This document shows, in pieces, positions 1,107 to 19,051 of a stretch of DNA of 64,000 nt. A program made the translations under genes and the position numbers. The stretch is from Alloboseaceae bacterium BT-24-1 (GTDB lineage Bacteria > Pseudomonadota > Alphaproteobacteria > Rhizobiales > Beijerinckiaceae), in the NCBI GenBank assembly GCA_025846845.1, contig JAOYTL010000009.1, forward strand, positions 266,180-330,179, written 5' to 3'. The notes under the pieces are model-generated. The model ran no database searches. It saw nothing but the letters and a program-made list of their open reading frames with translations, and was not told the origin of the DNA. The number at the start of each line of letters is the position of its first letter. Within the stretch, counting starts at the first letter, position 1.

Positions 1107-1345
1107 TCCGTGCGGCCGTGGCCGGAAGAATGCCGGGATCGGATCTTCTGATGCGCAAAAATCTTGCATCGGGAAAGGTCAAATAGAGCGCTCGCGTCGG
1201 GCATCCTCCAATATAGTTTTCCGCTGCGGCTGGTCGCTACTTCGGCGATGGGTCTGACCAGCTCCTGGCGCGTCGCCGATCATCGCCATCTCGAAAGTCC
1301 TTCAGGTCCGACCTTCGGCGCCGGCTCTGCTAACGGAAAGCCCCG

Positions 1346-4094: not shown

Positions 4095-5054
4095 CTAGAA
4101 TCGTATTTCGCTCAGGTCGTGAGGCATCATCTCCTTGAAAATAGGTAGGTAGATTTCCTTGAAAACGCTCCGCGACGCATCTGCGATCAGGGCCGGAAGC
4201 GCACCCAGTTCCCCGTTTCGCGCGACTATCGTGATCGTCCTACGGATCTCCGGGCCCGGAAACCTGCGCAACTCGGTATTCGATAGGTGATTTAGGCTAC
4301 GGGCCACCGAGGTCGGCGGAAGCATCGCCCAGCCAAACCCGTTACCCACCATCGCGGTGACCGAATCCACGCTGTCGAAGGTATAAGCGTGATCGGGCTC
4401 GATCCGCATCCGTCTAAGGTGGCGTTCGATCCTCTGGCCCAGATCACTGTTCGGGCTGTTTCGAACAAAAGGGACCGTCTGAGCGTAATCCTTGAATTCA
4501 GAGGCATCGGCGAGGCTGGGAGCGCCCCTCGGAACCAGCAGTAAGAACGGTTCGTCGAGCACCTCGTGCTGCTCCAACCCACCCGCGTCCTCAAAGAAGT
4601 TTGCCGCGATCAAGAGGTCCAAGGTCCGCTCCTGGAGGCGTCGGCGAAGTCCGCTGTTGAAGTCGGTAGCGATCGAAAACCCGCGGACTCTTTTGCTCAG
4701 CCCGTGGATGAAACGCGGCAGGAAGTGCACGGCAAGCGACTCGATCAAGCCGATCCGGAGGTTGGGTAGCGCGCCGCCGCCAAGGCGCACTTCCGTGTCC
4801 ATGGTCCGGGCCTGCCGAATGAGCATCTCGGCATGACGACGGACGATGTCGCCGAGAACCGTAGGCACCGACGGCCTGTGGCTGCGGTCCAGCAGCGAGG
4901 CACCGAAATGCCGCTCCAGTTCGGCCAACGCGTGGGACACCCCGGAAGGCGTGATCCCGATATCCCGCGCGGCCTCGGAAAGGCTTCCCCGCTCGCAGAT
5001 AGCAACGAAGGTCGCCAGCTCGCGCATGTGCAATGCGAGGAAGGGTTTGTCCAT
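4095..5054 (-). CDS. LysR-family transcriptional regulator
   Basis: 319 residues with the LysR winged helix-turn-helix at about 10-70 (LATFVAICERGSLSEAARDI, then GITPSGVSHALAELERHFGA) and an effector-binding periplasmic-binding-protein-like domain from about 95 onward. The ATG at 5054 is the natural LysR start. It is divergent from the ureohydrolase/ABC operon across a 309-bp gap, the usual position for a LysR gene that controls its neighbour, so it probably activates that operon in response to the imported compound. The effector is unknown. No clean T-N11-A palindrome stood out by eye. Confidence 0.9.
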   Translation of the reverse strand: MDKPFLALHMRELATFVAICERGSLSEAARDIGITPSGVSHALAELERHFGASLLDRSHRPSVPTVLGDIVRRHAEMLIRQARTMDTEVRLGGGALPNLRIGLIESLAVHFLPRFIHGLSKRVRGFSIATDFNSGLRRRLQERTLDLLIAANFFEDAGGLEQHEVLDEPFLLLVPRGAPSLADASEFKDYAQTVPFVRNSPNSDLGQRIERHLRRMRIEPDHAYTFDSVDSVTAMVGNGFGWAMLPPTSVARSLNHLSNTELRRFPGPEIRRTITIVARNGELGALPALIADASRSVFKEIYLPIFKEMMPHDLSEIRF

Positions 5055-5363
5055 CCTGACGTCGATAGTGAAGACCGCTCATGCTTTCAATGATTGATTC
5101 TCACATTATTCCATGCCGGCATCCATTCCACCCGACTAAGCCACTGGATTCAATGAGGAAATCGACCAACGACGGCTGCGGGCCGAAATCCATGCGCGGG
5201 AGCAACTCGTTGCCTAGCGGGATGGTTCCGAGATACTGCTCTTAGCCGACCAACTCGGGGCTGGCGGCTGACGTCGGATAACTTTTGCGGACATCCGAAG
5301 TGCTTCATCCGCTTTTCACCACAAGATGCTTCTGCAGAAAATAAACGGCCAAGGATAGGTTTC
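5055..5363. promoter_or_regulatory. Divergent intergenic region between lysR and the ureohydrolase operon
   Basis: 309 bp with no open frame of its own. By position it must hold the lysR promoter and the promoter and LysR operator for the plus-strand operon. It is AT-richer near the lysR end (about 5080-5120). I could not pick out a convincing -35/-10 pair. The ribosome site of the downstream gene, AAGGATAGG at 5351-5359, decides its GTG start. Confidence 0.45.
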
Positions 5364-6320
5364 GTGTTACATAATCTAACCTCCGCCCCCGTACATGGGC
5401 ATCGGACATTCCTTTTCTCGGAACTCCAGCTAGATCTCGACAATCTAAACGCCGATATTGCGTTTCTTGGCATCCCTTTCGGTCATCCTTATACTATACG
5501 CAACGTCTCGAACGATCAGTCCAATGGGCCGACCGCCGTCAGGCAAGCGTCGGATCGGGTCTCCCGATCGCTGGAGCGCTATGATTTCGACGTCGGGGGC
5601 CCACTGTTCGACGACAGGCCCGTACGCATGGCCGACTGTGGCGACGTCATCGGGGAGATGCACGACCCCGCCTCGCATTCCCGGCGCGCGGAGGAGGCGG
5701 TGCGGAAAATTGTCGCCGCGGGCGCCCTTCCACTGATCATGGGCGGCGACCACGCTATCCCCGTCCCAGTGCTGAGAGCGTTAGACGACCAAGGTCCCCT
5801 AGTTCTCGTGCAACTCGACGCCCACATCGACTGGCGAGATGACGTGGACGGCGTTCGGGAAGGATTGTCCAGCCCGATACGGCGCGCCTCAGAGATGGCG
5901 CATGTGGGCGAGATCTTCCAGATCGGGATCCGTTCACAGGGCAGTGCGCGGCGTGCGGACGTAGAGGCTGCGAGAGCCTACGGTGCGCAGATCATCACAT
6001 CATACGAAGTGCACGACGACGGGATGGCGGCCGTTCTGGATCGCATTCCCGACAACGCGAGATACTACCTCACCATCGATGCCGATGGCCTCGATCCATC
6101 GGTCATGCCGGCCGTCGAGGGACCCGCGCCCGGCGGCATCACCTTCCACCAGGCTCGGAAGCTTATCCACGGCCTGGTGCGAAAGGGTCGCGTGGTGGGC
6201 ATGGATATCGTCGAGATCACCCCGTCGCGGGATGTGGACCGCATCAGCGCCATCACGGCGGGGCGGCTTTTTGCCAATCTCATCGGCGCAACAATCAGAG
6301 CAGGCTATTTCGAGAAATGA
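5364..6320 (+). CDS. Ureohydrolase (agmatinase/guanidinobutyrase-like) 1
   Basis: 318-residue binuclear manganese hydrolase of the arginase/agmatinase family, which releases urea from a guanidino group. All metal ligands are visible: GGDH (His130), DAHID (Asp152, His154, Asp156) and TIDADGLDP (Asp239, Asp241). Substrate-recognition loops differ from arginase (MPAVEGPAPGG replaces the APGTGTPxPGG signature), so arginine itself is unlikely and agmatine, guanidinobutyrate or a related guanidino acid is more likely. The start is GTG with AAGGATAGG seven bases upstream. The stop overlaps the next gene's ATG (ATGA). A diverged paralogue of identical length lies at 13882. Confidence 0.9.
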   Translation: MLHNLTSAPVHGHRTFLFSELQLDLDNLNADIAFLGIPFGHPYTIRNVSNDQSNGPTAVRQASDRVSRSLERYDFDVGGPLFDDRPVRMADCGDVIGEMHDPASHSRRAEEAVRKIVAAGALPLIMGGDHAIPVPVLRALDDQGPLVLVQLDAHIDWRDDVDGVREGLSSPIRRASEMAHVGEIFQIGIRSQGSARRADVEAARAYGAQIITSYEVHDDGMAAVLDRIPDNARYYLTIDADGLDPSVMPAVEGPAPGGITFHQARKLIHGLVRKGRVVGMDIVEITPSRDVDRISAITAGRLFANLIGATIRAGYFEK

Positions 6321-7147
6321 CGCGGCTCGTCGACAAAGCCGTCTCGGACCAGCGATCGCCGACCTCGCAGTCGGGCGAGCGAGATACGCGCACACTTTCT
6401 GGAACCTGGTTCGACAGGACACGATACCACCCTGCCATCACACGTATCTGGGAGCCTCGGGTACATCGCATGTTCCGAGGAAACACGTGGCTGATCGAAG
6501 GCCGCGACGCCGATCTCGTGATCGACTTCGGCTTGGGGGTGACGTCGCTGACCAATGCCCTGGACCGGGATGTCGGAAAACCCGTTATTGCGTTGGCCAC
6601 TCATGTCCACGTCGACCACGTTGGATGCCTCCACGAGTTCGAGGACCGGTTGGGCCATGGATCGGAAGCCGCTTACTTCCAGCGGATGCCCGACGAATTC
6701 ACCCTCGCTCACTTGGTCCGCACGACGCCCGACGCCGCGGGTGAAGAACCTCCTGCAGGATGGAAATGCGAGGATTTCGAGCTTCGTCCCGCTCCGCTCA
6801 CGCGGATTGTGGCTGATGGCGACGTCATCGACCTCGGGGACACCTTTTTTCGTGTCGTTCACCTACCAGGGCATTCCGCAGGGTCCATTGGCGTTCTCGA
6901 CGAGGCCCGCAAGCTCCTGTTCAGCGGTGACGCCATCTACGAGGGAAGGCTGCTGGACGGCTTTCCTGGATCGTCGGTGGACGACTACGTCGGGACCATG
7001 AGGAGACTGATCTCCATGAACGTTGAGACCGTGTTCGGCGGGCACGGCGAGCCAATCTCGGGGGGAAGGATGAAAGCGATCGCCGCGGGTTACATCGCTG
7101 ACCGCGAAGCTGGCGGCCGCGAGCCGTTCGTACCTTCGATCGCCTGA
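6317..7147 (+). CDS. MBL-fold metallo-hydrolase
   Basis: 276 residues with the metallo-beta-lactamase zinc signature HVHVDH at 96-101. Later ligand motifs are also present: VVHLPGHSAGS, FSGDAIYEG and VFGGHGEPI. The fold covers lactonases, thioesterases and other hydrolases; the exact reaction cannot be read. Its start overlaps the stop of ureohydrolase 1 by four bases, so the two are translationally coupled and probably act in sequence on one compound. An ester, lactone or amide intermediate is plausible. There is no signal peptide, so it is cytoplasmic. Confidence 0.88.
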   Translation: MTRLVDKAVSDQRSPTSQSGERDTRTLSGTWFDRTRYHPAITRIWEPRVHRMFRGNTWLIEGRDADLVIDFGLGVTSLTNALDRDVGKPVIALATHVHVDHVGCLHEFEDRLGHGSEAAYFQRMPDEFTLAHLVRTTPDAAGEEPPAGWKCEDFELRPAPLTRIVADGDVIDLGDTFFRVVHLPGHSAGSIGVLDEARKLLFSGDAIYEGRLLDGFPGSSVDDYVGTMRRLISMNVETVFGGHGEPISGGRMKAIAAGYIADREAGGREPFVPSIA

Positions 7148-7216
7148 GGCCGCATTCTGAAAGCGCTTGCATTCGCGGTCGCGGACGATTTTTCCCTTCT
7201 TTGGAGATTGTGAAAA

Positions 7217-8443
7217 ATGGATCGCCTTTCGTACTCGACGAGTTCCCTGCCCGGTTGCGACCGGCATCCAATTCCCGGCGCGGTCAGGCACAGGGAGAGG
7301 CTTTTTCTCAGTGGATCGAGCGCCGTCCAGTCAGATGGCTCGATCAAAGGGGGCAGCGATCCTGCGGCGCAGACCCATGCAGCGTTGGACCGCCTGGAGA
7401 CTGCCCTGGATGCGGCCGGCGCCTCACTGGACAATATCACGAAGCTGACGACCAGCATCGTGGATCGCGGCTATCGGGCGGAGGTCTACCGTGCTTTGAG
7501 CCAGCGGCTCGCCAAGGCGCGCCCCGTCAGCACCGGGTTGGTCGTCTCGGCACTGCCGCGTCCCGATCTGATCGTGCAGATCGATGCCGAGGGCATCATG
7601 CCCGAAAACCCGCTGCGGTTCACTCGCCCCTACTCCTTCGAAAATTGGCATGGCCAAGGCTTCCCATGGACGGGCTCGATGGCGATCCGTTCCGATGTCG
7701 AGGTCTTCGTGCGCGGCCAGACGGGGTCGGGACTGGACCACAGTGGGATAATGGCCAAAGGACGCGGCTTGGATTCTGCCGCCGATCAGGCGGAACTGGC
7801 CATGACAAACCTGTCGATCCTTTTGCAGGAGGCAGGAACATCCTTGGACGATGTCTGCAAGATCACCGTCTATATCAGCGATCGAGTGTACCGGCCCGCT
7901 GTCTATCCGGTACTTGGTCGGCATTTTGGTGAAATCCGCCCCGTCTCGACGGGCATCGTGACGACGGCTTTCGCAAGTCCCGAGATTCTTTTCGAGCTAG
8001 ACGTGGTCGTTCTCCCGCAGAATGGCGGCGATCGGCACCTGCGTCTGCGGCCCTATGATTCCGCAGACGCCTATTACGGCTCGCAACGGCAAGGACTCGG
8101 CTCGAAGCTCTGCATGGCTGTGGTCGCCGGAGACCGCGTGATCTTGCGAGGGCAGACAGGCATGGACCTGGAGCATGTGCTTCGCGGCGCCGGTGACGCC
8201 AGCGCCCAGGCGGAGCAGGCGATGGACAACGTCGCGGAGCTATTGGGCGAGGCTGGAGCCACGCTCGACGATGTCGTCAAGGCAACGGTCTACGTGACCG
8301 AACCCGACTACCTGGCGGGCGTGAACGCCTCTGTCTTGAGACGCTTTGCCAATCCGCCTGCGTTCACCTCGTTTGTGGTGAAGGGACTGGCGAGCCCGGA
8401 ACTGCTCATGGAAGTCGACATCGTCGCGGTCAAGCGGGCCTGA
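7217..8443 (+). CDS. Triple-domain RidA/YjgF-like protein
   Basis: 408 residues made of three consecutive RidA/YjgF/Rid-family domains (about 10-128, 138-268 and 285-405). Each has the family helix (for example LDAAGASLDNITKLT, LQEAGTSLDDVCKITVYI, LGEAGATLDDVVKATVYV) and a closing strand (LIVQID, ILFELD, LLMEVD). RidA normally has about 130 residues and forms a trimer; here one chain could make the whole trimer. The arginine that hydrolyses enamines/imines in RidA is not present at the aligned position of any copy (Ala112, Ala251, Gly390), as in the non-deaminase Rid subfamilies. It follows the MBL gene by 69 bp in the same operon. A role in binding or handling an amine/imine intermediate is inferred. 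Confidence 0.85.
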   Translation: MDRLSYSTSSLPGCDRHPIPGAVRHRERLFLSGSSAVQSDGSIKGGSDPAAQTHAALDRLETALDAAGASLDNITKLTTSIVDRGYRAEVYRALSQRLAKARPVSTGLVVSALPRPDLIVQIDAEGIMPENPLRFTRPYSFENWHGQGFPWTGSMAIRSDVEVFVRGQTGSGLDHSGIMAKGRGLDSAADQAELAMTNLSILLQEAGTSLDDVCKITVYISDRVYRPAVYPVLGRHFGEIRPVSTGIVTTAFASPEILFELDVVVLPQNGGDRHLRLRPYDSADAYYGSQRQGLGSKLCMAVVAGDRVILRGQTGMDLEHVLRGAGDASAQAEQAMDNVAELLGEAGATLDDVVKATVYVTEPDYLAGVNASVLRRFANPPAFTSFVVKGLASPELLMEVDIVAVKRA

Positions 8444-8594
8444 GGACCCGAGGGTCTAAGCGCTGGTGAGGTCGGATCCTGATGACCGGCGTCTCCGATG
8501 CACTTCCGCGACGTTCACCGGATTGAACGAACGGACCACTCCCACCAGTGGAAATCGCAGTCCAATACAAACGTAACAAAAGAAGGGGAAAGTG

Positions 8595-10094
8595 ATGAAG
8601 AATTTCCTGAGCGTGGCGGCTGTAGCCGTGGCGATGTCGCTGCCGATCTGGACACCCGCGTTGGCGCAGAACTCGCTCCGCGCCGCCCTAGCGACGACCC
8701 TCTACCAACTGGATCCGTCCAAGACGACGATAGGAGACGAATACATCTATGTGCATCTCGTCTTCAACGGGCTGTCGCGAATAGATCCCGATCTGACGGT
8801 CAAGCCCGACCTCGCCGAGAGTTGGAAAGCCTCGGACGACCTGAAAACCTGGGTCTTCAAACTCCGTGATGGCGTGAAGTTCCATCATGGAAGGACGCTT
8901 GATGCAGAGGATGTCGTCGTCACAGTCAAGCGAATCCTCGACCCGCAAACGGGATCGCGGGGCCGGTCGAACCTGACCATGGTCGATACCGTGGAAGCGA
9001 CGGGGCCACTCGAGGTCACGTTCAAACTGAACATTGCATATGCGGGCTTCCCCGACGTATTCGCTGACCGGCAGCTTCGCATCGTCCCGAGGGACAAAGT
9101 CGACGAGCTCTCCACGCATCCGATCGGCACGGGTCCCTTCAAGTTCAAGTCCTGGTCGCCTGGCGACCGGATGGAGCTGGTAAAGAACCCCGACTACTTC
9201 GAGGCGAGCCTGCCCAAGCTCGATGGTGTGACGCTCCGCATTATCCCGGAGGCCGCGGCGCGCATCGCCGCGCTCGAATCCGGGTCGATCGATCTTCTCT
9301 GGAACCTCCCCTTCGAAGCCGTCGAGAAGTTCGAGAATCACAAAACCATCCGGATCGACAGCGTCCCGACCCCGACCTGGGACGGCGTGATCCTCAACAA
9401 CGAACGTCCGCCTTTCAACGACCCGCGAGTGCGTAAGGCTCTCGCTCTTACGATAGACAAGTCCGCGCTCGTGGAACTCGCACTCTTCGGCCAGGGAGCC
9501 CCGACTTTCAGCCCCCTTCCTCCGGGTCATCCCTACTTCAACACTGAAATGAAGTTCGCGCCGCCGGATATCGCGCAGGCGAAGAAGCTCCTCGCGGAGG
9601 CCGGTTACCCGAACGGGTTCGACATCCCGATGCAAGTTCCCCAGGAGCGGGAGCAGCGCGTGCGGCTGGGTGTCGCGGTGAGGGACATGGCCCGCGCCGC
9701 CGGCATTCGCATCAACGTCGAGCGCGTGCCGTTTGCCACCTATGCGGCAAATGTCGCGGGCAAGGCCCAGCTGTTCATCGACGGATACTTTGCGCGCCCC
9801 ACCGTCGATACGTCCCTCTATCCGTTCTACCACTCCTCGGGGTCCTGGAACCGCCAGCTCTGGCTCTACAATGAGCCACGTGTTGACCGGATCCTCGACG
9901 AGGCGCGGCGCACCAACGACGAGGAAGCCCGCAAAAAGCTGTTCAAGGAGTTCCAGGTCGTCGTCGAGGAAACCCAGCCCAGCATCATCGCCTACGCACA
10001 GGCTCACGTGAACGGGGTCAGCCGCAGGGTCGAGGGCTTCAAGTCGACGCCCATGCTCTGGCTAGAGCTCAAGAACGTCACCCTGAAGCCGTAA
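8595..10094 (+). CDS. ABC transporter substrate-binding protein, family 5 (peptide/opine/nickel type)
   Basis: About 499 residues with a clear Sec signal peptide (VAAVAVAMSLPIWTPALA, cleaved before QN). The SBP_bac_5 features follow: LAESWKASDDLKTWVFKLRD, VKFHHGRTLDAEDVV, and the central IGTGPFKFKSW. The mature protein is periplasmic and presents the substrate to the permeases encoded next. Family 5 proteins bind di/oligopeptides, opines, nickel chelates or glutathione. The neighbouring ureohydrolases suggest a guanidino-bearing peptide or opine. An ATG preceded by AAGGGGAAA is preferred to the GTG one codon earlier. A 148-bp gap separates it from the RidA gene and may hold a second promoter. 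Confidence 0.92.
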   Translation: MKNFLSVAAVAVAMSLPIWTPALAQNSLRAALATTLYQLDPSKTTIGDEYIYVHLVFNGLSRIDPDLTVKPDLAESWKASDDLKTWVFKLRDGVKFHHGRTLDAEDVVVTVKRILDPQTGSRGRSNLTMVDTVEATGPLEVTFKLNIAYAGFPDVFADRQLRIVPRDKVDELSTHPIGTGPFKFKSWSPGDRMELVKNPDYFEASLPKLDGVTLRIIPEAAARIAALESGSIDLLWNLPFEAVEKFENHKTIRIDSVPTPTWDGVILNNERPPFNDPRVRKALALTIDKSALVELALFGQGAPTFSPLPPGHPYFNTEMKFAPPDIAQAKKLLAEAGYPNGFDIPMQVPQEREQRVRLGVAVRDMARAAGIRINVERVPFATYAANVAGKAQLFIDGYFARPTVDTSLYPFYHSSGSWNRQLWLYNEPRVDRILDEARRTNDEEARKKLFKEFQVVVEETQPSIIAYAQAHVNGVSRRVEGFKSTPMLWLELKNVTLKP

Positions 10095-10107
10095 GAGCAG
10101 CGCCCAG

Positions 10108-11064
10108 ATGACCGCATTCATCGCACGTCGCCTGTTCTTCATAGTTCTCGTGCTCGTCGCCGTGTCGATGCTGGTGTTCGGGATCACGGCGCTCCTGCCG
10201 GCCAATGTCGCATATCTGATCCTGGGGCCATTCGCGCCTCCGGATCAGGTGCGGGCGCTTGAGATCAAACTGGGTCTGACGGATCCCATCTGGCAGCAAT
10301 ACCTTCGCTGGGCGAGCTCGTTCCTTACCGGCAACCTGGGCGAATCCACCCTCATGAACCGGCCCATCGGGCCCATGCTCACTGAGGCGGTCGGCCGGTC
10401 GCTGATGCTCACAGGGGCCTCTTTCGTGCTGATCGCTGTGATCGGCGTCGGACTCGGGATCGTCGCGGCGCTGCGGCACGGAAAGCCGCTGGACCACGGC
10501 GTGTCCATCGGGACCTATCTCGGTATCGCCGTCCCCGAGTTCTTCTGGGCGATCATCGTCATCCTGGTCTTCGCCGCCTGGTTGGGTTGGCTGCCCGCCT
10601 CGGGGTACGAGGCGCCCTCGGAGGGCCTCTGGATCTGGCTGAAGCATCTTATCGCACCGACGATCACGCTCGTCTTCGGTCATCTCGCCCACGTCTCGCG
10701 CCTAACCCGATCGAGCATGATCGAAGTGCTGCAGAGCCCATATGTGACGGCAGCGCGTGCGAAGGGTCTCCCCGAGCACGTCGTGGTCCTCAGGCACGCC
10801 CTGCGGAACGCGCTGCTCCCGACGATCACGGCCCTCGCCCTCGATTTCGGACGCCTGATGGGAGGAATCGTGGTCGTCGAGACCATCTTCGCCTACCCCG
10901 GCCTCGGGAGGTTGATCGTCTTTTCCATCCAGAACAGGGATCTGCCGACATTGCAGGCGGCGATCCTCGTCGTAGCCGCCATCTACGCGGCTGCAAACCT
11001 CGTGGCGGACCTCCTGTACGCCCGCTTCAATCCCAAGATCAGGTATGGGCGCAATGTCAGCTGA
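10108..11064 (+). CDS. ABC transporter permease, DppB/OppB type
   Basis: 318-residue inner-membrane permease with about six transmembrane helices. The N-terminal helix starts immediately (RRLFFIVLVLVAVSMLVFGI), a large periplasmic loop follows, and a BPD_transp_1 domain carries the coupling EAA-like loop (YVTAARAKGLPEHVVVLRHA, then LRNALLPTITALAL). It pairs with the next permease to form the channel. The gene overlaps the next start by 20 bases, so translation is coupled. Confidence 0.92.
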   Translation: MTAFIARRLFFIVLVLVAVSMLVFGITALLPANVAYLILGPFAPPDQVRALEIKLGLTDPIWQQYLRWASSFLTGNLGESTLMNRPIGPMLTEAVGRSLMLTGASFVLIAVIGVGLGIVAALRHGKPLDHGVSIGTYLGIAVPEFFWAIIVILVFAAWLGWLPASGYEAPSEGLWIWLKHLIAPTITLVFGHLAHVSRLTRSSMIEVLQSPYVTAARAKGLPEHVVVLRHALRNALLPTITALALDFGRLMGGIVVVETIFAYPGLGRLIVFSIQNRDLPTLQAAILVVAAIYAAANLVADLLYARFNPKIRYGRNVS

Positions 11065-11926
11065 GGTGTCAACGACGGTCGTCGACGAAAAACCGCCGGC
11101 TCGCGGCTGGCCGCTGCAGCTCAAGATCGGGCTCCTTCTCACCGGCACGATCGTGCTGCTGAGCTTGCTTGCGCCGTCGATCGCGCCGCATCCCTGGGAT
11201 ACAGTGTCGATGCGGACGCGCTTCCTGCCACCCGGCCCGACGTATTGGTTGGGGACGGATGAATATGGGCGCGACGTCCTGAGCCGTTTGCTCATGGGGG
11301 GCCGGCTTTCAATCGCGATGGGGTTGGGGGCGACAATCGTCAGCCTTTTGGTCGGCGTGCCTATGGGGCTTGCCGCCGGCTATTTCCGTGGCTGGGTCGA
11401 CGAGACCTTGATGCGGCTCGCCGACGTCCTGATGGCCGTTCCGCCGATCATGCTTGGCCTCCTCGTCCTAGCCGTCACCCCGCCTTCCCTTTGGAAGACG
11501 GCCCTCGCTGTCGGCTTCGTCTATATACCGTTGATCGCCCGGATCACCCGGAGCGTGACGCTCACCCTGGCGAACGAGGAATTCATCCAAGCCGCCAGGG
11601 CGCGCTCGGAGAGCAACTGGTACATCCTGTTCCGGGAGATCCTTCCAAACGCCTGGCCGCCTTTGCTCGTCGAAGCAAGCTTGCGCGTGACCTATGCCAT
11701 CCTTTTGGGTTCTGCCCTCAGCTTTCTCGGTCTGGGAGCCCAGCCGCCAAGCTCGGACTGGGGCCTGATGATCGCCGAGGCCCGCTCATTCATCGACCGC
11801 GCCCCGTGGATCGCGCTCGCACCCGGTCTCGCCATGTGCCTGCTCGTCATCGGCATCAACCTGCTCGGAGACGGCCTGCGCGAGCGGCTCGACCCGCGCC
11901 TCAAGACCAGGATCGGTAAGCGCTGA
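11045..11926 (+). CDS. ABC transporter permease, DppC/OppC type
   Basis: 293-residue partner permease with an N-terminal cytoplasmic tail, a first helix near residues 30-48, and the DppC hallmark GTDEYGRDVLSRLLMGGRLS. The coupling loop FIQAARARSESNWYILFREI is followed by LPNAWPPLLVEASLRV. The ATG at 11045 overlaps the upstream permease; an in-frame ATG three codons later (11054) is an alternative start. It is followed one base later by the ATPase gene, so the importer subunits are made as a block. Confidence 0.92.
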   Translation: MGAMSAEVSTTVVDEKPPARGWPLQLKIGLLLTGTIVLLSLLAPSIAPHPWDTVSMRTRFLPPGPTYWLGTDEYGRDVLSRLLMGGRLSIAMGLGATIVSLLVGVPMGLAAGYFRGWVDETLMRLADVLMAVPPIMLGLLVLAVTPPSLWKTALAVGFVYIPLIARITRSVTLTLANEEFIQAARARSESNWYILFREILPNAWPPLLVEASLRVTYAILLGSALSFLGLGAQPPSSDWGLMIAEARSFIDRAPWIALAPGLAMCLLVIGINLLGDGLRERLDPRLKTRIGKR

Positions 11927-11927
11927 C

Positions 11928-13787
11928 ATGCTGGATATTTTCGACCTCACGGTTCGCTACCGCACTTCCGGCGGAGAGCTCGAGGCGCTCTCGTCGATCT
12001 CGATCAGCGCCAAAAAGGGCACGACGCTGGCCCTGGTGGGCGAGTCCGGATCGGGCAAGAGCACCGTTGCCCTGGCTGCCATGGGGCTGCTTCCGCAGGA
12101 GGCGCAGATCATAGGCGGAACCGTCCGCTTTGATGGCCATGACCTCGGTGCCATGAGCGTGGAGGAACGCCGGCGCCTGCGGGGCTCGCGCCTGGGGCTG
12201 GTGTTCCAGGACCCGTTCTCGGTGCTCAACCCTTCGCTGACAATCGGCTCGCAGGTTGGCGAATCCCTCATCCACCATCGCGGATACACGCCTCGCGAGG
12301 CGTTCGAGCGGGCGATCGGACTGCTGGACGAGGTCGGCATCCTCAATCCCAAGGCTGTGGCGAACGCCTATCCCCATGAACTGTCGGGTGGCATGCGGCA
12401 ACGCGCCATCATCGCCGGCGCGCTCGCGCCCGAGCCGGACCTGCTCATCCTCGACGAGCCGACGACCGCACTGGACGTGACGATCGAGGCGCAGATCATC
12501 GAGCTGCTCGAGCAGTTGCGCGCCCGCCGTGGGCTCACCATGCTGTTCATAAGCCACAACCTCGGCGTGGTGCGGCGCGTCGCCGACGAGGTTGCGGTGC
12601 TCTATGCCGGGCAGATCATCGAGCACGGCGCGACCGAGGACGTGCTGCATCGCCCGATGCACCCCTATGCCAAGGGCCTTCTCGCGGCGATCCCACGCAT
12701 CGGCTCCAAGCAGCTCAGGCTGGCCTCCATCCCAGGTCGGCTGCCCGACCTTCGGAAGCCTCCGAGCGGCTGTCGTTTCGCGGAGCGCTGCCCCTTCGCT
12801 TCCGAGAGCAGCACGCAGCCTCAAACCATGCGGATGGTCGGTGGCAGGGGCGTTCGGTGCGCAAATGCCGAGTTGGTTGAATCAACGCCATGGCCGACCC
12901 CGGAGGCGACCGCGACACAAGCGCCGCCAAGGTCGGAGCAGTCACCGGTCGTCTCGGTGCGCGCGCTCGACAAGACCTTCCGGATCGGGGGCGGCGTCAC
13001 GCTGGAAGGCTGGCGGCTGCGTAGAAACGAAACGCTTCTCAAGCCTGTGGACGACATCACGCTGGACATCCGACGCGGCGAGGTTCTCGGCCTCGTGGGG
13101 GAGTCCGGGTCTGGGAAGACGACCCTTGGAAGGACGATCCTTCGTTTGATCGATCCGGATTCGGGTGAGATCCGGATTGGGGACGAGCTCGTTTCCGGAA
13201 AGCCCCAGCGAGAGCTCGAAAGGATGCGGCGAACCGCGCAGATCGTCTTCCAGAACCCGGATTCCTCGCTCAATCCCCGCAAGACCGTCGGGGAATTGCT
13301 AGCACGGCCCATTAGGCGCTTCGGGCTTGCAACCACCGAGCGGATGCCCACGCGCGTGCGGGAGTTACTGGACATGGTGCGCCTGCCCTCGCACTATGCC
13401 AACCGCTATCCCCATCAGATGAGTGGAGGCGAGAAGCAGCGCGTCGGGATCGCCAGGGCGCTGGCGACTGAGCCACGCTTCATCGTCTGCGATGAGCCCG
13501 TATCCGCGCTCGACGTATCAGTTCAGGCGGCGATCGTGAACCTCCTGGCCGATCTGCGCGATCAGTTGGGAGTCGCGTATCTCTTCATCTCGCACGATAT
13601 CGGAGTGGTCGCCCATCTATCGGACAGGATCGCTGTGATGCAGCATGGCAAGCTCGTCGAGATCGGCGACGCTGACGCTATCCTCAACCACCCAAGACAC
13701 CCCTACACGATCAAGCTCCTATCGGCCGTTCCGAGGGTCGACGCCCGGTCGACGTCTGCGGGTTCAGGCCCCCCACCACTTCAGTAA
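11928..13787 (+). CDS. Fused double ATP-binding subunit of the ABC importer (DppD-DppF type)
   Basis: 619 residues containing two full ABC ATPase domains in one chain. Domain 1 has Walker A GESGSGKST, signature LSGGMRQR and Walker B LLILDEPTTALD. Domain 2 (from about residue 345) has GESGSGKTT, MSGGEKQR and FIVCDEPVSALDVS. Between them lies the oligopeptide-transporter linker with its conserved cysteines (CRFAERCPF), which in some relatives binds an iron-sulfur cluster. Many alphaproteobacterial importers of this class carry the two halves fused like this. It energises the permeases encoded just upstream. Confidence 0.93.
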   Translation: MLDIFDLTVRYRTSGGELEALSSISISAKKGTTLALVGESGSGKSTVALAAMGLLPQEAQIIGGTVRFDGHDLGAMSVEERRRLRGSRLGLVFQDPFSVLNPSLTIGSQVGESLIHHRGYTPREAFERAIGLLDEVGILNPKAVANAYPHELSGGMRQRAIIAGALAPEPDLLILDEPTTALDVTIEAQIIELLEQLRARRGLTMLFISHNLGVVRRVADEVAVLYAGQIIEHGATEDVLHRPMHPYAKGLLAAIPRIGSKQLRLASIPGRLPDLRKPPSGCRFAERCPFASESSTQPQTMRMVGGRGVRCANAELVESTPWPTPEATATQAPPRSEQSPVVSVRALDKTFRIGGGVTLEGWRLRRNETLLKPVDDITLDIRRGEVLGLVGESGSGKTTLGRTILRLIDPDSGEIRIGDELVSGKPQRELERMRRTAQIVFQNPDSSLNPRKTVGELLARPIRRFGLATTERMPTRVRELLDMVRLPSHYANRYPHQMSGGEKQRVGIARALATEPRFIVCDEPVSALDVSVQAAIVNLLADLRDQLGVAYLFISHDIGVVAHLSDRIAVMQHGKLVEIGDADAILNHPRHPYTIKLLSAVPRVDARSTSAGSGPPPLQ

Positions 13788-13881
13788 CGGCACAACCGAA
13801 CAAGCGTCGCCGACGTCGGCGCAGCGATCGCTCGTCCTCGCCCGTCACAGCGCGCAAGCTTCCCGACAAAAGGAAAACCTC

Positions 13882-14838
13882 ATGAGACTTACCGTTCCCG
13901 CCAAAGCCGAACATACGACGTTTCTCTATTCTGCGGCAGTGAACAGCCTGGACGATCTGGCGGCGGATATTGCCTATCTCGGGATACCCTACGGTCATTC
14001 GTACTCGTTCGGAGAAATCGCGAACGACCAGAGCCGCGGGCCCTTGGCTTTGCGCCGCGCTACCGATCGGATCCTGCGCTCGATCGAACGTTACGACTTC
14101 GACATCGGGGGACCGCTCTACGACAACAGGCCGATACGCGCCGTCGATTGCGGTGACGTCTATGCGGACCCTACCGATCCCCTGGGTCACCTCGCACGTG
14201 CGGAAGCAACGGTTCGAAAGATCGTCGCCGCCGGGGCCATGCCCATAGTCCTCGGCGGCGATCACTCGATCCCGATCCCCGTCCTGCGTGCGTTGGACGA
14301 CCAGGGGCCGATCACCTTGATCCAGATCGACCAGCACCTGGATTGGCGCGAGGAGATAAACGGCGTGCGCGAAGGACTTTCCAGCCCCATCCGCCGCGCC
14401 TCGGAGATGAGCCATATCGGGGAGATTTTCCAGATCGGGCTGCACGCTTCCGGAAGCGGGCGACCGGAAGAGTTCGACGCAGCGCGCGCCTATGGAGCAC
14501 ACCTCTTCCCGTCCTATGACATTCACGAGAAGGGCATCGACCACGTCCTCGAAAGGATTCCCGATGGCGGTCGATACTACGTTACGATCGACCTGGACGC
14601 ATTCGAGCCGGGAATCGCGCCTGGGGTGGCTGCCCCGTGCGCAGGCGGCATGACCTTCATGCAGGCCCGGACGTTGCTGCACGGCTTGGTTCGAAAGGGT
14701 CGAGTGTTGGGCATGGATGTGGTGGAGATCACGCCCTCCACGGACGTGAACCAGATCACGACCATCACGGCGGGTCGTTTGATCGTAAACCTCGTCGGGG
14801 CTGCCGTTCGCGCCGGCTATTTCGATACGGCAGCCTGA
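13882..14838 (+). CDS. Ureohydrolase (agmatinase/guanidinobutyrase-like) 2
   Basis: 318 residues, equal in length to the protein at 5364 and clearly its paralogue along the whole chain. Metal ligands are kept: GGDH (His128), DQHLD (Asp150, His152, Asp154), TIDLDAFEP (Asp237, Asp239). It departs from the family at several otherwise common positions: Gln replaces Ala in DAHxD, Glu replaces Asp after the second metal pair, and APGVAAPCAGG replaces the usual APGTGTPxPGG. So it may have a different substrate, or form a mixed oligomer with paralogue 1. The start is set by AAGGAAAAC before ATG at 13882; the frame is open further upstream but only as an overlap with the ATPase gene. Confidence 0.88.
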   Translation: MRLTVPAKAEHTTFLYSAAVNSLDDLAADIAYLGIPYGHSYSFGEIANDQSRGPLALRRATDRILRSIERYDFDIGGPLYDNRPIRAVDCGDVYADPTDPLGHLARAEATVRKIVAAGAMPIVLGGDHSIPIPVLRALDDQGPITLIQIDQHLDWREEINGVREGLSSPIRRASEMSHIGEIFQIGLHASGSGRPEEFDAARAYGAHLFPSYDIHEKGIDHVLERIPDGGRYYVTIDLDAFEPGIAPGVAAPCAGGMTFMQARTLLHGLVRKGRVLGMDVVEITPSTDVNQITTITAGRLIVNLVGAAVRAGYFDTAA

Positions 14839-14842
14839 CGGG

Positions 14843-16240
14843 ATGACCGCCCATCAGCCGGCCACGGGAGACGATGTCGAATTGCATCCCAGCACCGTCG
14901 GGGTGATGGCCGAGTGGGCGGCGAGCGTCGAGGACGGAGACATTCCGGAGACCGTCTGGAAGGTCGCTCTGAACTGCCTTGTTGACGTTTTTGGTGTCGC
15001 CATCGCTGGGTCGCGGACCCCGGTCGCCGAAGCGGCACGTGAGACGATGCTCGCTGTGTCGCGACCGGGAGATGCCGCACTTTTCGGCTGCGGAGCTTCC
15101 GTCTCGGCGCCGGGCGCCGCCTTCGCGAACGCCACGGCTGCACACGCGCTCGATTTCGACGACAACTGCTACGCGGGCTTCGTTCACGGGTCGGCGGTTG
15201 TCATCCCATCAGCGCTCGCCATGACCCAGGCCGTGGGCGCATCGGGACGGCGCTTTCTGAAAGCCATCATCATCGGAACCGAGGTCGAATATGCGTTGGG
15301 CATGGCCGCGACCCCCGGCATTTACGAGCGCGGATGGTGGACTACCGGCGTGCTCGGCTCGGTAGGATCCGCGGCGGCCGCAGCGGCGGCGATCCGCGCG
15401 AATGTCGATGAGACAGCCAACGCGCTCGGCTTCGCCATCGCCGGCACAGGAGGGATGAAGTCTTGCTTCGGTACCGATGCCAAACCGCTCATGTGCGGCC
15501 GAACCGCAGAGGCCGGCGTGACTGCGGCTATGCTCGCAAAGCGCGGCGCAACTGGCCCACACGACGCGGTCGAGCACAGGTTCGGGTTCGGGGCACTATT
15601 CGGATCGGGAGCCTTCCATCGCGAGCAACTCAATCTGCTGGGAACGTGCTGGCGCTTGCTCGAACCCGGCATCGATTTCAAGCGGATCCCCGTGTGCCTG
15701 TCCGCCCATGCCGCCGTGGACGTTGCAATTGGCCTCGTCGCGGAACACCGGCTTTCCCTCGAGCAGATCGAGACCATAACTTGCGACGTACCGCCGGTAG
15801 TGGTGGCGAACCTCGTCCATGACATCCCGACCTCGCGCCAGGAGGCCCAGTTTAGCATGCCCTTCGCCGTGGCGGCCTCCCTGTGCTTCGGCACATTGAA
15901 GGTCGAACACCTCGAACCGGCTCATCTCGCGCATGGCGGCGTCGCCGCACTGATGCGCAAGATCATCATGGTCGCCGGCCCGAGATGGACGCCCGAGCTG
16001 AGAGCAGCGGCGCCGGAGGGAGCCGCCGTCCGCATCGTTCTCAAGGACAGCCAGGTCTTCGAGGGATTTCGTGCCTGCACCAGGGGTTCGGCCGGAGAAC
16101 CGCTCGACGACAGCGAGATCGATTGCAAGTTTCTCGACTGCGCCGCTTCGGTCATGGACCAACGCAAGGCGAACCAACTGCTCGATCGCCTGCGCGGGAT
16201 CGATGGCTTGGAGGACGTTCGCACGCTTGTCGTCGCCTGA
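14843..16240 (+). CDS. MmgE/PrpD family protein
   Basis: 465 residues of the MmgE/PrpD fold (2-methylcitrate dehydratase, iminosuccinate epimerase, cis-aconitate decarboxylase relatives). Typical landmarks are ALNCLVDVFGVAIAGSRTP near the start, ATAAHALDFDDNCY (active-site region), and AGTGGMKSCFGTDAKPLMCG followed by RTAEAG. It starts four bases after the ureohydrolase 2 stop, so it belongs to the same operon. Propionate genes (prpB/C) are absent, so a role in methylcitrate metabolism is unlikely. A lyase, dehydratase or epimerase step on a dicarboxylate-like product of the pathway is a guess. Confidence 0.87.
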   Translation: MTAHQPATGDDVELHPSTVGVMAEWAASVEDGDIPETVWKVALNCLVDVFGVAIAGSRTPVAEAARETMLAVSRPGDAALFGCGASVSAPGAAFANATAAHALDFDDNCYAGFVHGSAVVIPSALAMTQAVGASGRRFLKAIIIGTEVEYALGMAATPGIYERGWWTTGVLGSVGSAAAAAAAIRANVDETANALGFAIAGTGGMKSCFGTDAKPLMCGRTAEAGVTAAMLAKRGATGPHDAVEHRFGFGALFGSGAFHREQLNLLGTCWRLLEPGIDFKRIPVCLSAHAAVDVAIGLVAEHRLSLEQIETITCDVPPVVVANLVHDIPTSRQEAQFSMPFAVAASLCFGTLKVEHLEPAHLAHGGVAALMRKIIMVAGPRWTPELRAAAPEGAAVRIVLKDSQVFEGFRACTRGSAGEPLDDSEIDCKFLDCAASVMDQRKANQLLDRLRGIDGLEDVRTLVVA

Positions 16241-16357: not shown

Positions 16358-17980
16358 CTACTTGCTAAGGTCGCGCCCGCGGGTCTCCGGCAGGAAAAGC
16401 GCCCCCACCACCGCGGTCAAGGCGGCAACGATCACCGTGTACCAGAGGCCGCCGAAGATGTTGCCCGTCGCAATGACCACGGCCGTGGCCACGAAGGGGG
16501 CGAAGCCACCAATCCAACCATTGCCGAGTTGCAGGGCCACGGAGACGCCGCTGTAACGTATCCGCACCGGGAACAGCTCGACGAGGAGGGCACCCAGCGG
16601 CCCATAGACCATGGTCGCGAGGAAGACCAAGCCAAACAGGGTCGCCACCACCATGGGACCGTTCGGCTGCACGGGAACCTTTGCCGACGGCATGCCCTTT
16701 TCGGTCAACACGCCGATGACTGCCGCATCGTTGAAGCCGGTGAGCTCCCTGTCCCCAATCCGGATACGCAAGGGAGCGCTGTCGGCGTTCACCACGTAGG
16801 GTATCGCGTTCGACGTGAGTAGCGTCTTAGCCTTGCCGCAATCCGTCGTCGCCTGCGGCTTGAAGATCTGCCCGAAGAACGATTGCTCCTCGCTGCAGTT
16901 GTTGCCGCTCAGGACGACGGACGTCCGCGCACGGAATTCCGTCAGCGCCGGGTTCCCGTAGGTAGCGAGGGCCTGGAACAGCGGCATCATCAGGATGCCG
17001 GATAACGCGCAGCCCGTCACGACGATCCACTTGCGTCCAATCCTGTCGGAGAGCCAGCCGAAGACGAGGAAGAACGGTGTTCCGAGCGAGAGGGCCATCA
17101 GCAGATAGAAGTTCGCCTGCTCGTGGCTCATCTTCAGTGTCGTGGTCATGAAGTAGAGGCTGTAGAAGTGGCCCGTGTACCAAACCACCGCCTGACCGGC
17201 AACAACGCCGAAGATCGCAACCAGCACAAGGCGAAGATTGCGGCTGTCCCCGAACGTTTCGGCGATGGGGTTGTCGGATCCCTTTCCCTTCGCCTTCATC
17301 TCCTTGAACACGGGGGATTCATGCAGCTTCAGGCGGATGTACAGCGAGAGGATGAGGAGCGCGATCGACCCGACGAAGGGTATGCGCCAACCCCAGCTCG
17401 CGAACGCCTCCGCCGACATAGACGACCGGCATACGACGATCACGATGAGCGATAGGAAAAGGCCGAGCGTCGCGGTGATCTGGATCCAACTCGTCGTCAG
17501 CCCGCGCCTGTTTGGATCGGAATGCTCCGCCACGTAGGTAACCGCGCCGCCAAACTCCCCGCCGACGGCCAAGCCCTGCAACAATCTCAGGCCAACCAGC
17601 AAGGCGGGGGCAGCCCAGCCGATGGAATCGTAGGTTGGCAAGAGGCCGATGGCCGCCGTGGCGAAACCCATGACAAGCATGGTGACGAGGAACGTTTTCT
17701 TACGACCGACGAGGTCGCCGAGCCGGCCGAAAACGACGGCACCGAATGGACGGAGCACGAAACCGGCACCGAAGGTGGCCAGTGCCGCGAGCAACGCGGC
17801 CGTCTCATTGCCCTTGGGAAAGAACAGCGTGCTGAAGAACGCCGCGAGCGATCCGTAGATGAAGAAGTCGTACCACTCGAACACCGTGCCAAGAGCGGCG
17901 GCAAATACGGTGCGTTTAGTATCTTGTTCGCTGGGCTGCGACATCGCAGTGGTCGCGGGCGATATCTGTTGAACCGACAT
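16358..17980 (-). CDS. MFS transporter, metabolite:H+ symporter (MHS) type, with large periplasmic insertion
   Basis: 540 residues with 12 predicted transmembrane helices. Signatures of the MHS branch (ProP/KgtP/ShiA) are present: GTVFEWYDFFIYGSLAAFF, RPFGAVVFGRLGDLVGRKKT and GGEFGGA. Between about residues 340 and 440 a soluble, cysteine-containing insertion (NNCSEEQSFFGQIF onward, ending before VVATLFGLVFLA) enlarges a periplasmic loop and explains the length above the usual 430. The start is the ATG at 17980 behind GGAGG; a longer frame upstream is only the overlap with the hydrolase gene. It lies 13 bp after the alpha/beta hydrolase gene in the same sigma-54-type transcription unit and probably imports the hydrolase's substrate, an organic acid or zwitterion. 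Confidence 0.88.
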   Translation of the reverse strand: MSVQQISPATTAMSQPSEQDTKRTVFAAALGTVFEWYDFFIYGSLAAFFSTLFFPKGNETAALLAALATFGAGFVLRPFGAVVFGRLGDLVGRKKTFLVTMLVMGFATAAIGLLPTYDSIGWAAPALLVGLRLLQGLAVGGEFGGAVTYVAEHSDPNRRGLTTSWIQITATLGLFLSLIVIVVCRSSMSAEAFASWGWRIPFVGSIALLILSLYIRLKLHESPVFKEMKAKGKGSDNPIAETFGDSRNLRLVLVAIFGVVAGQAVVWYTGHFYSLYFMTTTLKMSHEQANFYLLMALSLGTPFFLVFGWLSDRIGRKWIVVTGCALSGILMMPLFQALATYGNPALTEFRARTSVVLSGNNCSEEQSFFGQIFKPQATTDCGKAKTLLTSNAIPYVVNADSAPLRIRIGDRELTGFNDAAVIGVLTEKGMPSAKVPVQPNGPMVVATLFGLVFLATMVYGPLGALLVELFPVRIRYSGVSVALQLGNGWIGGFAPFVATAVVIATGNIFGGLWYTVIVAALTAVVGALFLPETRGRDLSK

Positions 17981-17993
17981 GCATGCCTCCCAT

Positions 17994-18818
17994 TCAAACG
18001 GTTTGCCGCGAATCGGCCAAGGCCGCTGCGGACGGGTTTCGGGTGCTCTGGCTGAGAAATTCCTCGAGCAGTCGATTGAAGGCGCCGGGTTGTTCGAGCA
18101 TGGGGAAATGCCCCGCCGCCGCGATGATCTCCAGGCGGCTTCCGGGGATGCCTTCGGCAAGCGCGCGGGACTCGCTGGGGGGTGTGATGATATCCTCGTC
18201 GCCGACGACCACCAATGTAGGCACGCCTATCTCGCCGAGCCTGGAACGGCTGTCCGAGGCATTCAGGGATACGATCGCCTGACGCGCCACTGAGGCCGGC
18301 GTCTGCGAGACCTCCATCTTCGCGAACCGCAACAGCTCGGGACCGGCAGCCTTGCCGAAGGATCGCTCGATGACGTTCTGGCTGGCCGTGACCACTCCCA
18401 GTTCCTCGATCGCCCGAAGCACATTGTTGACGTTAACGTCCTCACCGAGCCCGTGGGGCGTGGCACCCACCAGGACGAGCGCGTTGACACGTTCGGGGTA
18501 GCTGAGAGTGAAGCTCTGGGCCACCGTGCCGCCCATGGAAAGCCCGACGAGAACTGCCGTGTCGATCCCCAGTGTGCGATACACCTTGAGCAGATCGTCT
18601 GCGAAAGCCTCGATCGTATACTCGCGATCGTCGGGGCGAGGCGACACACCATGCCCCGGCAGGTTTATCCGGATGACCTTATAGGAACGCGAAAAGGCGT
18701 TGGTCTGCTCGCGCCAGAATTCAGCCGTCGTCGTGAAGCCGTGAACGAAGACGATTGGCTCTCCGCTCCCGGAGAGCTTCACCACGGTGTCTCCGATCTC
18801 CAAAGTTTGTTCTATCAT
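17994..18818 (-). CDS. Alpha/beta hydrolase (3-oxoadipate enol-lactonase-like)
   Basis: 274 residues with the oxyanion-hole motif VHGFTTT, the nucleophile elbow GLSMGG (Ser about 97), an acid in GDEDIITPP and the catalytic His in AAGHFPML. Members include enol-lactonases, C-C bond hydrolases and esterases. A longer frame begins at 18848, but the ATG at 18818 has GGGGAG just upstream and lies downstream of the start site predicted from the sigma-54 element, so 18818 is preferred. It is first in a two-gene unit with the MFS transporter and divergent from a PAS-AAA-Fis activator that likely controls it. Confidence 0.87.
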   Translation of the reverse strand: MIEQTLEIGDTVVKLSGSGEPIVFVHGFTTTAEFWREQTNAFSRSYKVIRINLPGHGVSPRPDDREYTIEAFADDLLKVYRTLGIDTAVLVGLSMGGTVAQSFTLSYPERVNALVLVGATPHGLGEDVNVNNVLRAIEELGVVTASQNVIERSFGKAAGPELLRFAKMEVSQTPASVARQAIVSLNASDSRSRLGEIGVPTLVVVGDEDIITPPSESRALAEGIPGSRLEIIAAAGHFPMLEQPGAFNRLLEEFLSQSTRNPSAAALADSRQTV

Positions 18819-18851
18819 TTGTGTCTCCCCTGCTTCTGGTCCGCTCATATT

Positions 18852-18867
18852 CGCAAGGCGCGGGCCA
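18852..18867 (-). promoter_or_regulatory. Sigma-54 (RpoN) -24/-12 promoter for the hydrolase-MFS operon
   Basis: On the minus strand the sequence TGGCCCGCGCCTTGCG matches the consensus TGGCACG-N4-TTGC at 10 of 11 fixed positions and has the obligatory GG-N10-GC spacing. Transcription would start about 12 bases beyond, near 18842, giving a short leader before the ATG at 18818. The divergent gene encodes a sigma-54 activator, which supports the call. Confidence 0.75.
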
Positions 18868-18921
18868 CCAGAGGCCAGGAGATCAGGTATCGATTATCTC
18901 ATTGAATTATAACTAATATTT

Positions 18922-18931
18922 ACTTCGAAGT
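18922..18931. promoter_or_regulatory. Palindrome, possible upstream activator site
   Basis: ACTTCGAAGT is a perfect 10-bp palindrome in the AT-rich divergent region, about 80 bp upstream of the predicted sigma-54 start. That is a usual place for an enhancer site of a Fis-type activator. Only one clear copy was seen, so this is tentative. Confidence 0.35.
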
Positions 18932-19051
18932 TCCTATTAGGACCATGTAGCCGGACAAGTTGTGCATCCGATACGAGACACGTAGAGTGCACCTTGAGAG
19001 ACATAGCCCTCATCACCGTGCCTGACGTGGCCGGCCAGTGCGGATGCTTCG

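Follow-up and report, generated by a model that had tools for sequence, protein, structure and literature searches.

A candidate operon for uptake and degradation of a guanidino compound in Alloboseaceae bacterium BT-24-1

Which compound would a bacterium take up and degrade with two ureohydrolases, an MBL-fold hydrolase, a triple RidA protein, a family-5 ABC importer and an MmgE/PrpD protein encoded in a single run of genes? Such a run lies in a 64,000 nt stretch of the Alloboseaceae bacterium BT-24-1 genome (the window; assembly GCA_025846845.1, contig JAOYTL010000009.1, positions 266,180 to 330,179), where ten genes at 4095-16240 comprise a divergent LysR gene on the minus strand and nine plus-strand genes. 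These are known families in a new combination, and the set is real and recurs in part elsewhere. A guanidino compound is the likeliest cargo, and we give an even chance to the reading that this is a LysR-controlled catabolic operon for uptake of an N-blocked guanidino amino acid, release of urea and deblocking. The ten genes are:

4095..5054, minus strand: LysR-type regulator, divergent (Pfam LysR_substrate and HTH_1)
5364..6320, plus strand: ureohydrolase 1, arginase family, 'DAH...DADGLDP' subclade, GTG start (Pfam PF00491, 208.6 bits)
6317..7147, plus strand: MBL-fold hydrolase (Pfam Lactamase_B)
7217..8443, plus strand: triple RidA, 3x-RidA type (three PF01042, Ribonuc_L-PSP, stretches)
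8592..10094, plus strand: family-5 solute-binding protein, SBP (Pfam SBP_bac_5)
10108..11064, plus strand: ABC permease, B type (Pfam and profile matches)
11045..11926, plus strand: ABC permease, C type (Pfam and profile matches)
11928..13787, plus strand: fused double ABC ATPase, oligopeptide type (two ABC_tran and two oligo_HPY stretches)
13882..14838, plus strand: ureohydrolase 2, 'DQH...DLDAFEP' subclade (Pfam PF00491, 196.2 bits)
14843..16240, plus strand: MmgE/PrpD protein (both MmgE/PrpD Pfam domains)

The gaps between the nine plus-strand genes are, in order, -4, 69, 148, 13, -20, 1, 94 and 4 bp (largest 148 bp, smallest -20 bp), and this spacing suggests that the genes at 5364-16240 are co-transcribed. 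Scans for promoter-like matches (2, against a shuffle mean of 2.2) and terminator-like matches (6, against a mean of 7.1) revealed no excess. The first-pass annotation had described a tightly spaced plus-strand unit with a divergent LysR gene, and all families named in it were found in place; its coordinates held for the operon genes except for ureohydrolase 2, which by alignment with relatives starts at ATG 13882 and not at 13645, an open reading frame (ORF) start falling inside the ATPase gene. As judged by Pfam the family-5 importer is complete, with SBP_bac_5, two permeases and two ATPase domains.

Both ureohydrolases scored above the PF00491 cut-off of 22 bits. They share 61% identity and belong to two subclades that diverge around the residues H130, D152, H154, D156, D239 and D241 (ureohydrolase 1 numbering), reading DAH...DADGLDP and DQH...DLD, respectively. 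These six residues (H, DxHxD, DxD), which we take to be the metal ligands, were invariant in 12 of 12 aligned relatives and are all retained in both window proteins. The best solved match of both proteins by sequence, and of ureohydrolase 1 also by fold, was the Deinococcus agmatinase 1wog, and the predicted model of ureohydrolase 1, which is of only moderate quality (mean pLDDT 78.5), matched the folds of 1wog, guanidinase, agmatinase and metformin hydrolase. The window proteins share this fold at about 32% identity to 1wog and other solved ureohydrolases, but with 155.7 and 141.8 bits both miss the agmatinase equivalog cut-off (TIGR01230, 174.3 bits); the hutG cut-off of 229.15 was likewise not reached (93.2 and 89.2). 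One or both enzymes are predicted to release urea from a guanidino group. An agmatinase or polyamine route was rejected on account of the missed agmatinase cut-off, and a pair with one inactive subunit, as in metformin hydrolase, was rejected because the ligands are kept in both proteins. The neighbouring genes in the window and in related loci (importer, MmgE/PrpD, RidA lacking the catalytic arginine, ArgE) point to a substrate other than agmatine.

In a tree of 57 arginase-family rows, ureohydrolase 2 paired with the protein of locus L063 (100/100 support, 81% identity), adjoining proteins of triple-RidA loci, while ureohydrolase 1 grouped with the proteins of loci L056 and L058 (96/87). The host contig carries a third ureohydrolase, 63% identical to ureohydrolase 1, about 117 kb away beside an amino-acid-type importer. 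At this third-copy locus (host contig 151800-155700; L025 6230-11866) the amino-acid-type ABC importer is accompanied by a LysR-like gene and a small RidA-like ORF. Compared by BLAST at 1e-3, the window LysR did not match the LysR proteins of L015 and L025 and weakly matched that of L063.

The triple RidA consists of three RidA units in tandem, as seen by Pfam and in an AlphaFold2 model with a mean pLDDT of 91.9. The whole chain matched chorismatase folds best (TM 0.51-0.55 on the query), and single units matched RidA proteins. According to PMC4433059, a catalytic arginine (Arg105) is essential for imine hydrolysis by RidA, about 10% of RidA proteins carry serine at this site, and 3x-RidA proteins have three units per chain as does the window protein, which differs in lacking arginine at the catalytic site. 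The corresponding residues are Ser105, Ser244 and Phe383 (Thr384 in the ungapped register). In all 13 aligned triple RidAs the site is serine in units 1 and 2 (13/13 each). For unit 3 the register differs by one residue between alignments and arginine stands at neither position, with Phe (10), Val (2) or Leu (1) at 383 and Thr (12) or Ala (1) at 384. The single RidA of the Azospirillum and Ewingella loci described below reads PVSTG at the catalytic site. Since no unit has the catalytic arginine, classical imine hydrolysis is unsupported.

The best solved relative of the MmgE/PrpD protein was iminodisuccinate epimerase 2hp0 (E 1.1e-51). PMC12290011 lists H85, D88, H99, H150, K198 and K266 as the 2hp0 active site with Y145 as second base, and describes a 1,4-dicarboxylate unit as common to the known MmgE/PrpD substrates. 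Six of these seven residues are conserved in the window protein (H101, D104, H115, Y161, K214, K280), whereas His150 is replaced by W166. Tryptophan occupied this site in nine of ten MmgE/PrpD proteins of the window type and tyrosine in the remaining one, and five others, 28-31% identical to the window protein, keep histidine. The substitution may reflect a substrate in which one carboxyl group is replaced or masked. Scores for the 2-methylcitrate dehydratase PrpD equivalogs stayed below the cut-offs (63.2 against 950, 29.3 against 458, 27.2 against 575). Matches at E up to 1e-80 were found in 5 of 289 genomes of the class sample, host included, and matches at E up to 1e-60 in 8 of 72,556 plasmid records, seven from Azospirillum and one from Cupriavidus. 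At the latter locus (L160 9141-18822, Cupriavidus metallidurans plasmid) the MmgE/PrpD gene lies between importer genes, followed by a gene for type II asparaginase and, at more distance, by one for an aspartase-type lyase; this is a candidate N-substituted aspartate operon.

By gene content the closest counterpart of the window operon is an Azospirillum plasmid operon, for which the annotation of four of the seven records was viewed. In A. brasilense Sp7 (NZ_CP012916.1, AMK58_RS23470 to RS23510) the order is divergent LysR, MmgE/PrpD, family-5 SBP, permease, permease, ATPase, RidA, ureohydrolase and argE. Identities to the window proteins are 36% for LysR (over 295 aa), 45% for MmgE/PrpD, 52% for both SBP and ATPase, 41-49% for RidA depending on the unit, and 61 and 58% for the two ureohydrolases. 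By coordinates, a ureohydrolase and a RidA gene lie within about 8 kb of MmgE/PrpD in 7/7 Azospirillum plasmid records. This operon thus shares LysR, MmgE/PrpD, SBP, two permeases, ATPase, RidA and ureohydrolase with the window, but has a single RidA, one ureohydrolase and argE (acetylornithine-deacetylase-type M20), and no MBL gene. A HutF-type deiminase gene is added in A. oryzae and A. ramasamyi (2/4 viewed), the A. oryzae protein scoring above the hutF cut-off.

Similar partners recur with other importers. The Ewingella plasmid pB61a has a ureohydrolase, an amino-acid-type importer, RidA and argE. Locus L063 encodes RidA, a family-3 SBP, MmgE/PrpD, a permease (named by eye), an ATPase, a ureohydrolase 81% identical to ureohydrolase 2 and an ArgE-type M20 protein, and so presents the same partners with a different importer type. 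The ArgE proteins of L107, L108 and L063 exceeded the acetylornithine deacetylase equivalog cut-off (396, 385 and 448 against 297.7). This suggests an N-blocked ornithine-like product and hence an N-blocked arginine-like substrate, and is the main ground for our proposal. The window's layout of an importer between two ureohydrolase genes is found in L058, which has a family-5 importer; pairs of arginase-family genes that flank or follow an importer, there of the amino-acid type, also occur in Chelatococcus, Salipiger and Neorhizobium. In these four cases the second arginase-family partner is more distant, sharing 29-33% identity with the window proteins. A urea-carboxylase-associated gene comes after the ureohydrolases in Chelatococcus and Salipiger, which fits urea release. 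A separate cluster at L065 4067-11094 contains MmgE/PrpD, M20, a weak ectoine hydrolase match (148 bits, cut-off 575), a ureohydrolase and a second arginase-family gene.

Altogether, these data are consistent with the following route. The importer would take up a dipeptide- or opine-sized guanidino compound with a blocked amino end (N-acyl, N-alkyl or N-peptidyl). One or both ureohydrolases would hydrolyse the guanidino group to urea, usable by the urease present in the 6.9 Mb host genome. A second hydrolase would remove the block, the ArgE-type M20 protein in Azospirillum, Ewingella and L063 and here, as a guess, the MBL protein. MmgE/PrpD may invert the carbon next to the carboxylate, which would make both stereoisomers usable, and RidA may act on a labile intermediate other than by classical arginine-dependent imine hydrolysis. 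The roles of MBL, RidA and MmgE/PrpD, the order of the steps and the nature of the block are all putative. A relative of the window MBL gene overlaps a speB gene in Gemmobacter plasmid p2, and other relatives follow importer genes. A search starting from MBL hit 45 of 249 genomes, host included, which marks a broad family, and among nine MBL loci (L151-L159) an arginase-family match (88-96 bits) lay within about 4 kb in three, all from one genome family (f5). An opine reading was set aside, as the families encoded in the operon include neither an opine oxidase nor an opine dehydrogenase; opines as a substrate class may still be among the cargo.

Linkage of these families was assessed by scanning genome contigs with a four-sequence triple-RidA alignment, which yielded 12 loci outside the host (L013-L024), and by counting neighbour families at profile matches of at least 40 bits. 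A triple RidA of the window type (E up to 1e-40) was present in 4 of 149 genomes of the family sample, host included. A family-5 SBP was found at 10/12 loci, a ureohydrolase at 9/12, a deaminase-like amidohydrolase at 9/12, carbamoylase-type M20 and DUF1028 at 7/12 each, hydantoinase at 5/12, and MmgE/PrpD and a racemase at 4/12 each, these MmgE/PrpD proteins being only 28-30% identical to that of the window. At the host's density of eight arginase-family genes per 6.9 Mb, nine of 12 would arise by chance with a probability of about 6e-13 for independent loci; this assumption fails, since all come from Alphaproteobacteria and several from Bosea. No ureohydrolase was seen at L017 and L019; the contigs of L019 and L020 are cut by their ends. 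The loci of Bosea, Bradyrhizobium and others share with the window the triple RidA and mostly a family-5 SBP and a ureohydrolase, but differ from it in carrying variously a deaminase, carbamoylase, hydantoinase, racemase or DUF1028 gene. In eight of the nine with a ureohydrolase, this gene is joined by one for a deaminase, carbamoylase or hydantoinase; L021 has none. The window triple RidA is 70% and the SBP 82% identical to those of Bosea sp. Root381, and importer and RidA are closer in identity to this strain than to Azospirillum, while the enzyme set of Root381 differs. A large conserved cluster spanning about 1-17 kb of L013, L014 and L023 comprises a deaminase-like amidohydrolase, ureohydrolase, carbamoylase-type M20, MmgE/PrpD, hydantoinase, ArgE/DapE-type M20, triple RidA, DUF1028 and a family-5 importer, with a racemase in L014 and L023, and seems to encode a fuller pathway than the window.

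The ureohydrolase subfamily, defined by at least 56% identity and E below 1e-100, was present in 14 of 297 genomes of the order and 9 of 385 genomes of the class, host included in both. On plasmids, 52 records matched the ureohydrolase, 18 of them at 57% identity or more, and importer genes stood in the same run in 10 of the 11 viewed among these 18, the sole exception being Bosea sp. 685. A DNA search of plasmids with the whole operon returned four records with one short match each. Neighbour ORFs were called by a GC-based heuristic that missed the ureohydrolases of L060, L088, L098 (two of these being controls) and L107 and the RidA of L107 and L113, so that absences are soft, and the contigs of L019, L020, L064, L080 and L148 are short.

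Several observations weigh against the proposed pathway. The Azospirillum loci cannot be counted as independent cases, and the same holds for Bosea and the other triple-RidA loci. Among 21 loci found from the ureohydrolase (L057 being dropped as a duplicate of L013), RidA occurred in 2, MmgE/PrpD in 2 and an SBP in 6, compared to 2, 2 and 8 in the controls, 20 loci whose ureohydrolases have 40-47% identity, so there was no enrichment. The class search from MmgE/PrpD gave five loci in four other genomes, with an arginase-family match in one (L146, 65 bits), which also has a family-5 SBP. L147 and L150 have a family-3 SBP near MmgE/PrpD, L150 also RidA, and no arginase-family match; L148, on its short contig, and L149 show neither an arginase-family match nor an SBP; and no ureohydrolase is annotated at the Cupriavidus plasmid locus. 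The window itself has no M20 gene, which leaves the deblocking step to depend on the guess about MBL. Finally, on the Bosea sp. 685 plasmid the annotation next to a ureohydrolase 86% identical to ureohydrolase 2 lists neither an importer nor RidA or MmgE/PrpD. Linkage to the partner genes is seen in the branch to which the window proteins belong, but not across the ureohydrolase subfamily as a whole. The co-occurrence in other genomes that the first-pass annotation had suggested looking for was recovered in part, with the ureohydrolase at nine of 12 triple-RidA loci and the Azospirillum set on one side and the unenriched ureohydrolase-first samples on the other.

The Bosea sp. 685 plasmid also bears on the extent of the operon. 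Downstream, at window positions 16358-20404, lie an MFS transporter and an alpha/beta hydrolase gene (both minus strand) and a sigma-54 regulator gene, a stretch that is syntenic with this plasmid, where nitrile hydratase genes follow further on. As the solitary ureohydrolase stands there beside the same MFS transporter (91%), alpha/beta hydrolase (85%) and sigma-54 regulator (78%), the operon could be a patchwork of two adjacent units, ureohydrolase 2 being part of the downstream flank and the pathway comprising ureohydrolase 1, MBL, RidA and importer only. We regard this as quite unlikely, because in L063 the 81% identical ureohydrolase is in a same-strand run with RidA and MmgE/PrpD and because the gaps around ureohydrolase 2 in the window are just 94 and 4 bp. 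Either importer and MmgE/PrpD were lost in Bosea sp. 685, or ureohydrolase 2 was recruited in the window; the arrangement in L063 favours an old link between the ureohydrolase 2 type and MmgE/PrpD. On the other side of the operon, window positions 156-2455 encode an FAD-linked oxidase C-terminal domain protein and a class I/II aminotransferase.

Other substrates were weighed against the N-blocked guanidino amino acid. An N-amidino or otherwise N-substituted aspartate such as guanidinosuccinate would be cleaved by the ureohydrolase to urea and aspartate, with MmgE/PrpD epimerising the aspartyl carbon and aspartase-type enzymes completing the route. This is unlikely in our view, notwithstanding that the nearest relative of the MmgE/PrpD protein is iminodisuccinate epimerase and that the known substrates, according to PMC12290011, share the 1,4-dicarboxylate unit, as one carboxylate-binding histidine is tryptophan in the window type. 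In Aminobacter an aspartase-type lyase, an ATPase gene and then an asparaginase come after the ureohydrolase, MmgE/PrpD keeps company with an asparaginase and such a lyase in Cupriavidus, and the Paracoccus versutus ureohydrolase run includes an asparaginase-like ORF (named by eye from its N-terminus); aspartate genes, however, are absent from the window operon and from all four of the Azospirillum operons that were viewed. With 698 and 544 the Aminobacter and Cupriavidus lyases passed the cut-off of the aspartate ammonia-lyase subfamily (510), but with 596 and 463 they fell short of that of the aspA equivalog (681); the asparaginase of Aminobacter stayed below the type II cut-off (197.5 against 314.3). 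Carbamoylase, hydantoinase and Asp/Glu/hydantoin racemase at triple-RidA loci would fit ureidosuccinate chemistry, whereas ArgE points to ornithine instead. A guanidinosuccinate amidinohydrolase was reportedly described in Pseudomonas in 1972; this report did not come up in the literature search. A further proposal, which we hold to be rather doubtful, is an undescribed pathway of modular build whose substrates would be N-substituted guanidino amino dicarboxylates, either N-amidino-aspartate or conjugates of arginine and aspartate. Here an iminodisuccinate-type epimerase would feed the new-subfamily ureohydrolase and the arginine-less RidA would handle an intermediate, combined with family-5 or family-3 importers in the host, Azospirillum and the L063 genome and, without MmgE/PrpD, in Ewingella.

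The shared triple RidA and importer cassette, the SBP of which is 82% identical to that of Bosea sp. Root381, raise the question of whether the cargo is a cyclic guanidine or hydantoin precursor and the window a reduced form of the deaminase/hydantoinase/carbamoylase pathway of Bosea and Bradyrhizobium. The counts given above for deaminase-like, carbamoylase, DUF1028, hydantoinase and racemase genes speak for it, but all five are missing from the window operon, and of such genes the four viewed Azospirillum operons have only the HutF-type deiminase, in two, which makes this improbable. Scavenging of the cyanophycin dipeptide beta-Asp-Arg, an idea prompted by the cyanophycin literature, would explain through a dipeptide-type importer and guanidino and aspartyl ends both the ureohydrolase here and asparaginase and ArgE in relatives. 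It has very little probability, given that cyanophycinase was not found in the host, isoaspartyl dipeptidase is not named in the annotated tables of the plasmid loci viewed, and literature searches gave no such operon. We attach equally little probability to an arginase-family pair whose substrate is a ureido compound or an amidine other than a guanidino compound: formimidoylglutamase and metformin hydrolase belong to the superfamily, and nothing specific argues against this reading, while neither window ureohydrolase attains the hutG cut-off.

We return to the N-blocked guanidino amino acid. The proposal in the first-pass annotation that the locus imports and breaks down a guanidino-bearing peptide, opine or amino acid is sustained by the retained metal ligands, the recurrence of the set, the urea-carboxylase-associated genes in two relatives and the host urease; it is tempered by a guanidino substrate class that is predicted only, by the unenriched ureohydrolase-first samples and by the solitary ureohydrolase 2 type in Bosea sp. 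685. It had also named no known pathway for this gene set, and our searches agree, as no description of such an operon, including the Azospirillum counterpart, was found in the literature searched, from which subscription papers were mostly lacking. Most plasmid records seen label genes of this subfamily of ureohydrolases 'agmatinase', yet the scanned proteins miss the NCBI agmatinase equivalog cut-off. If the proposed pathway is correct, it would constitute a new route of nitrogen salvage among soil and root-associated bacteria and provide a function for RidA proteins without the catalytic arginine and for an iminodisuccinate-epimerase-like protein.

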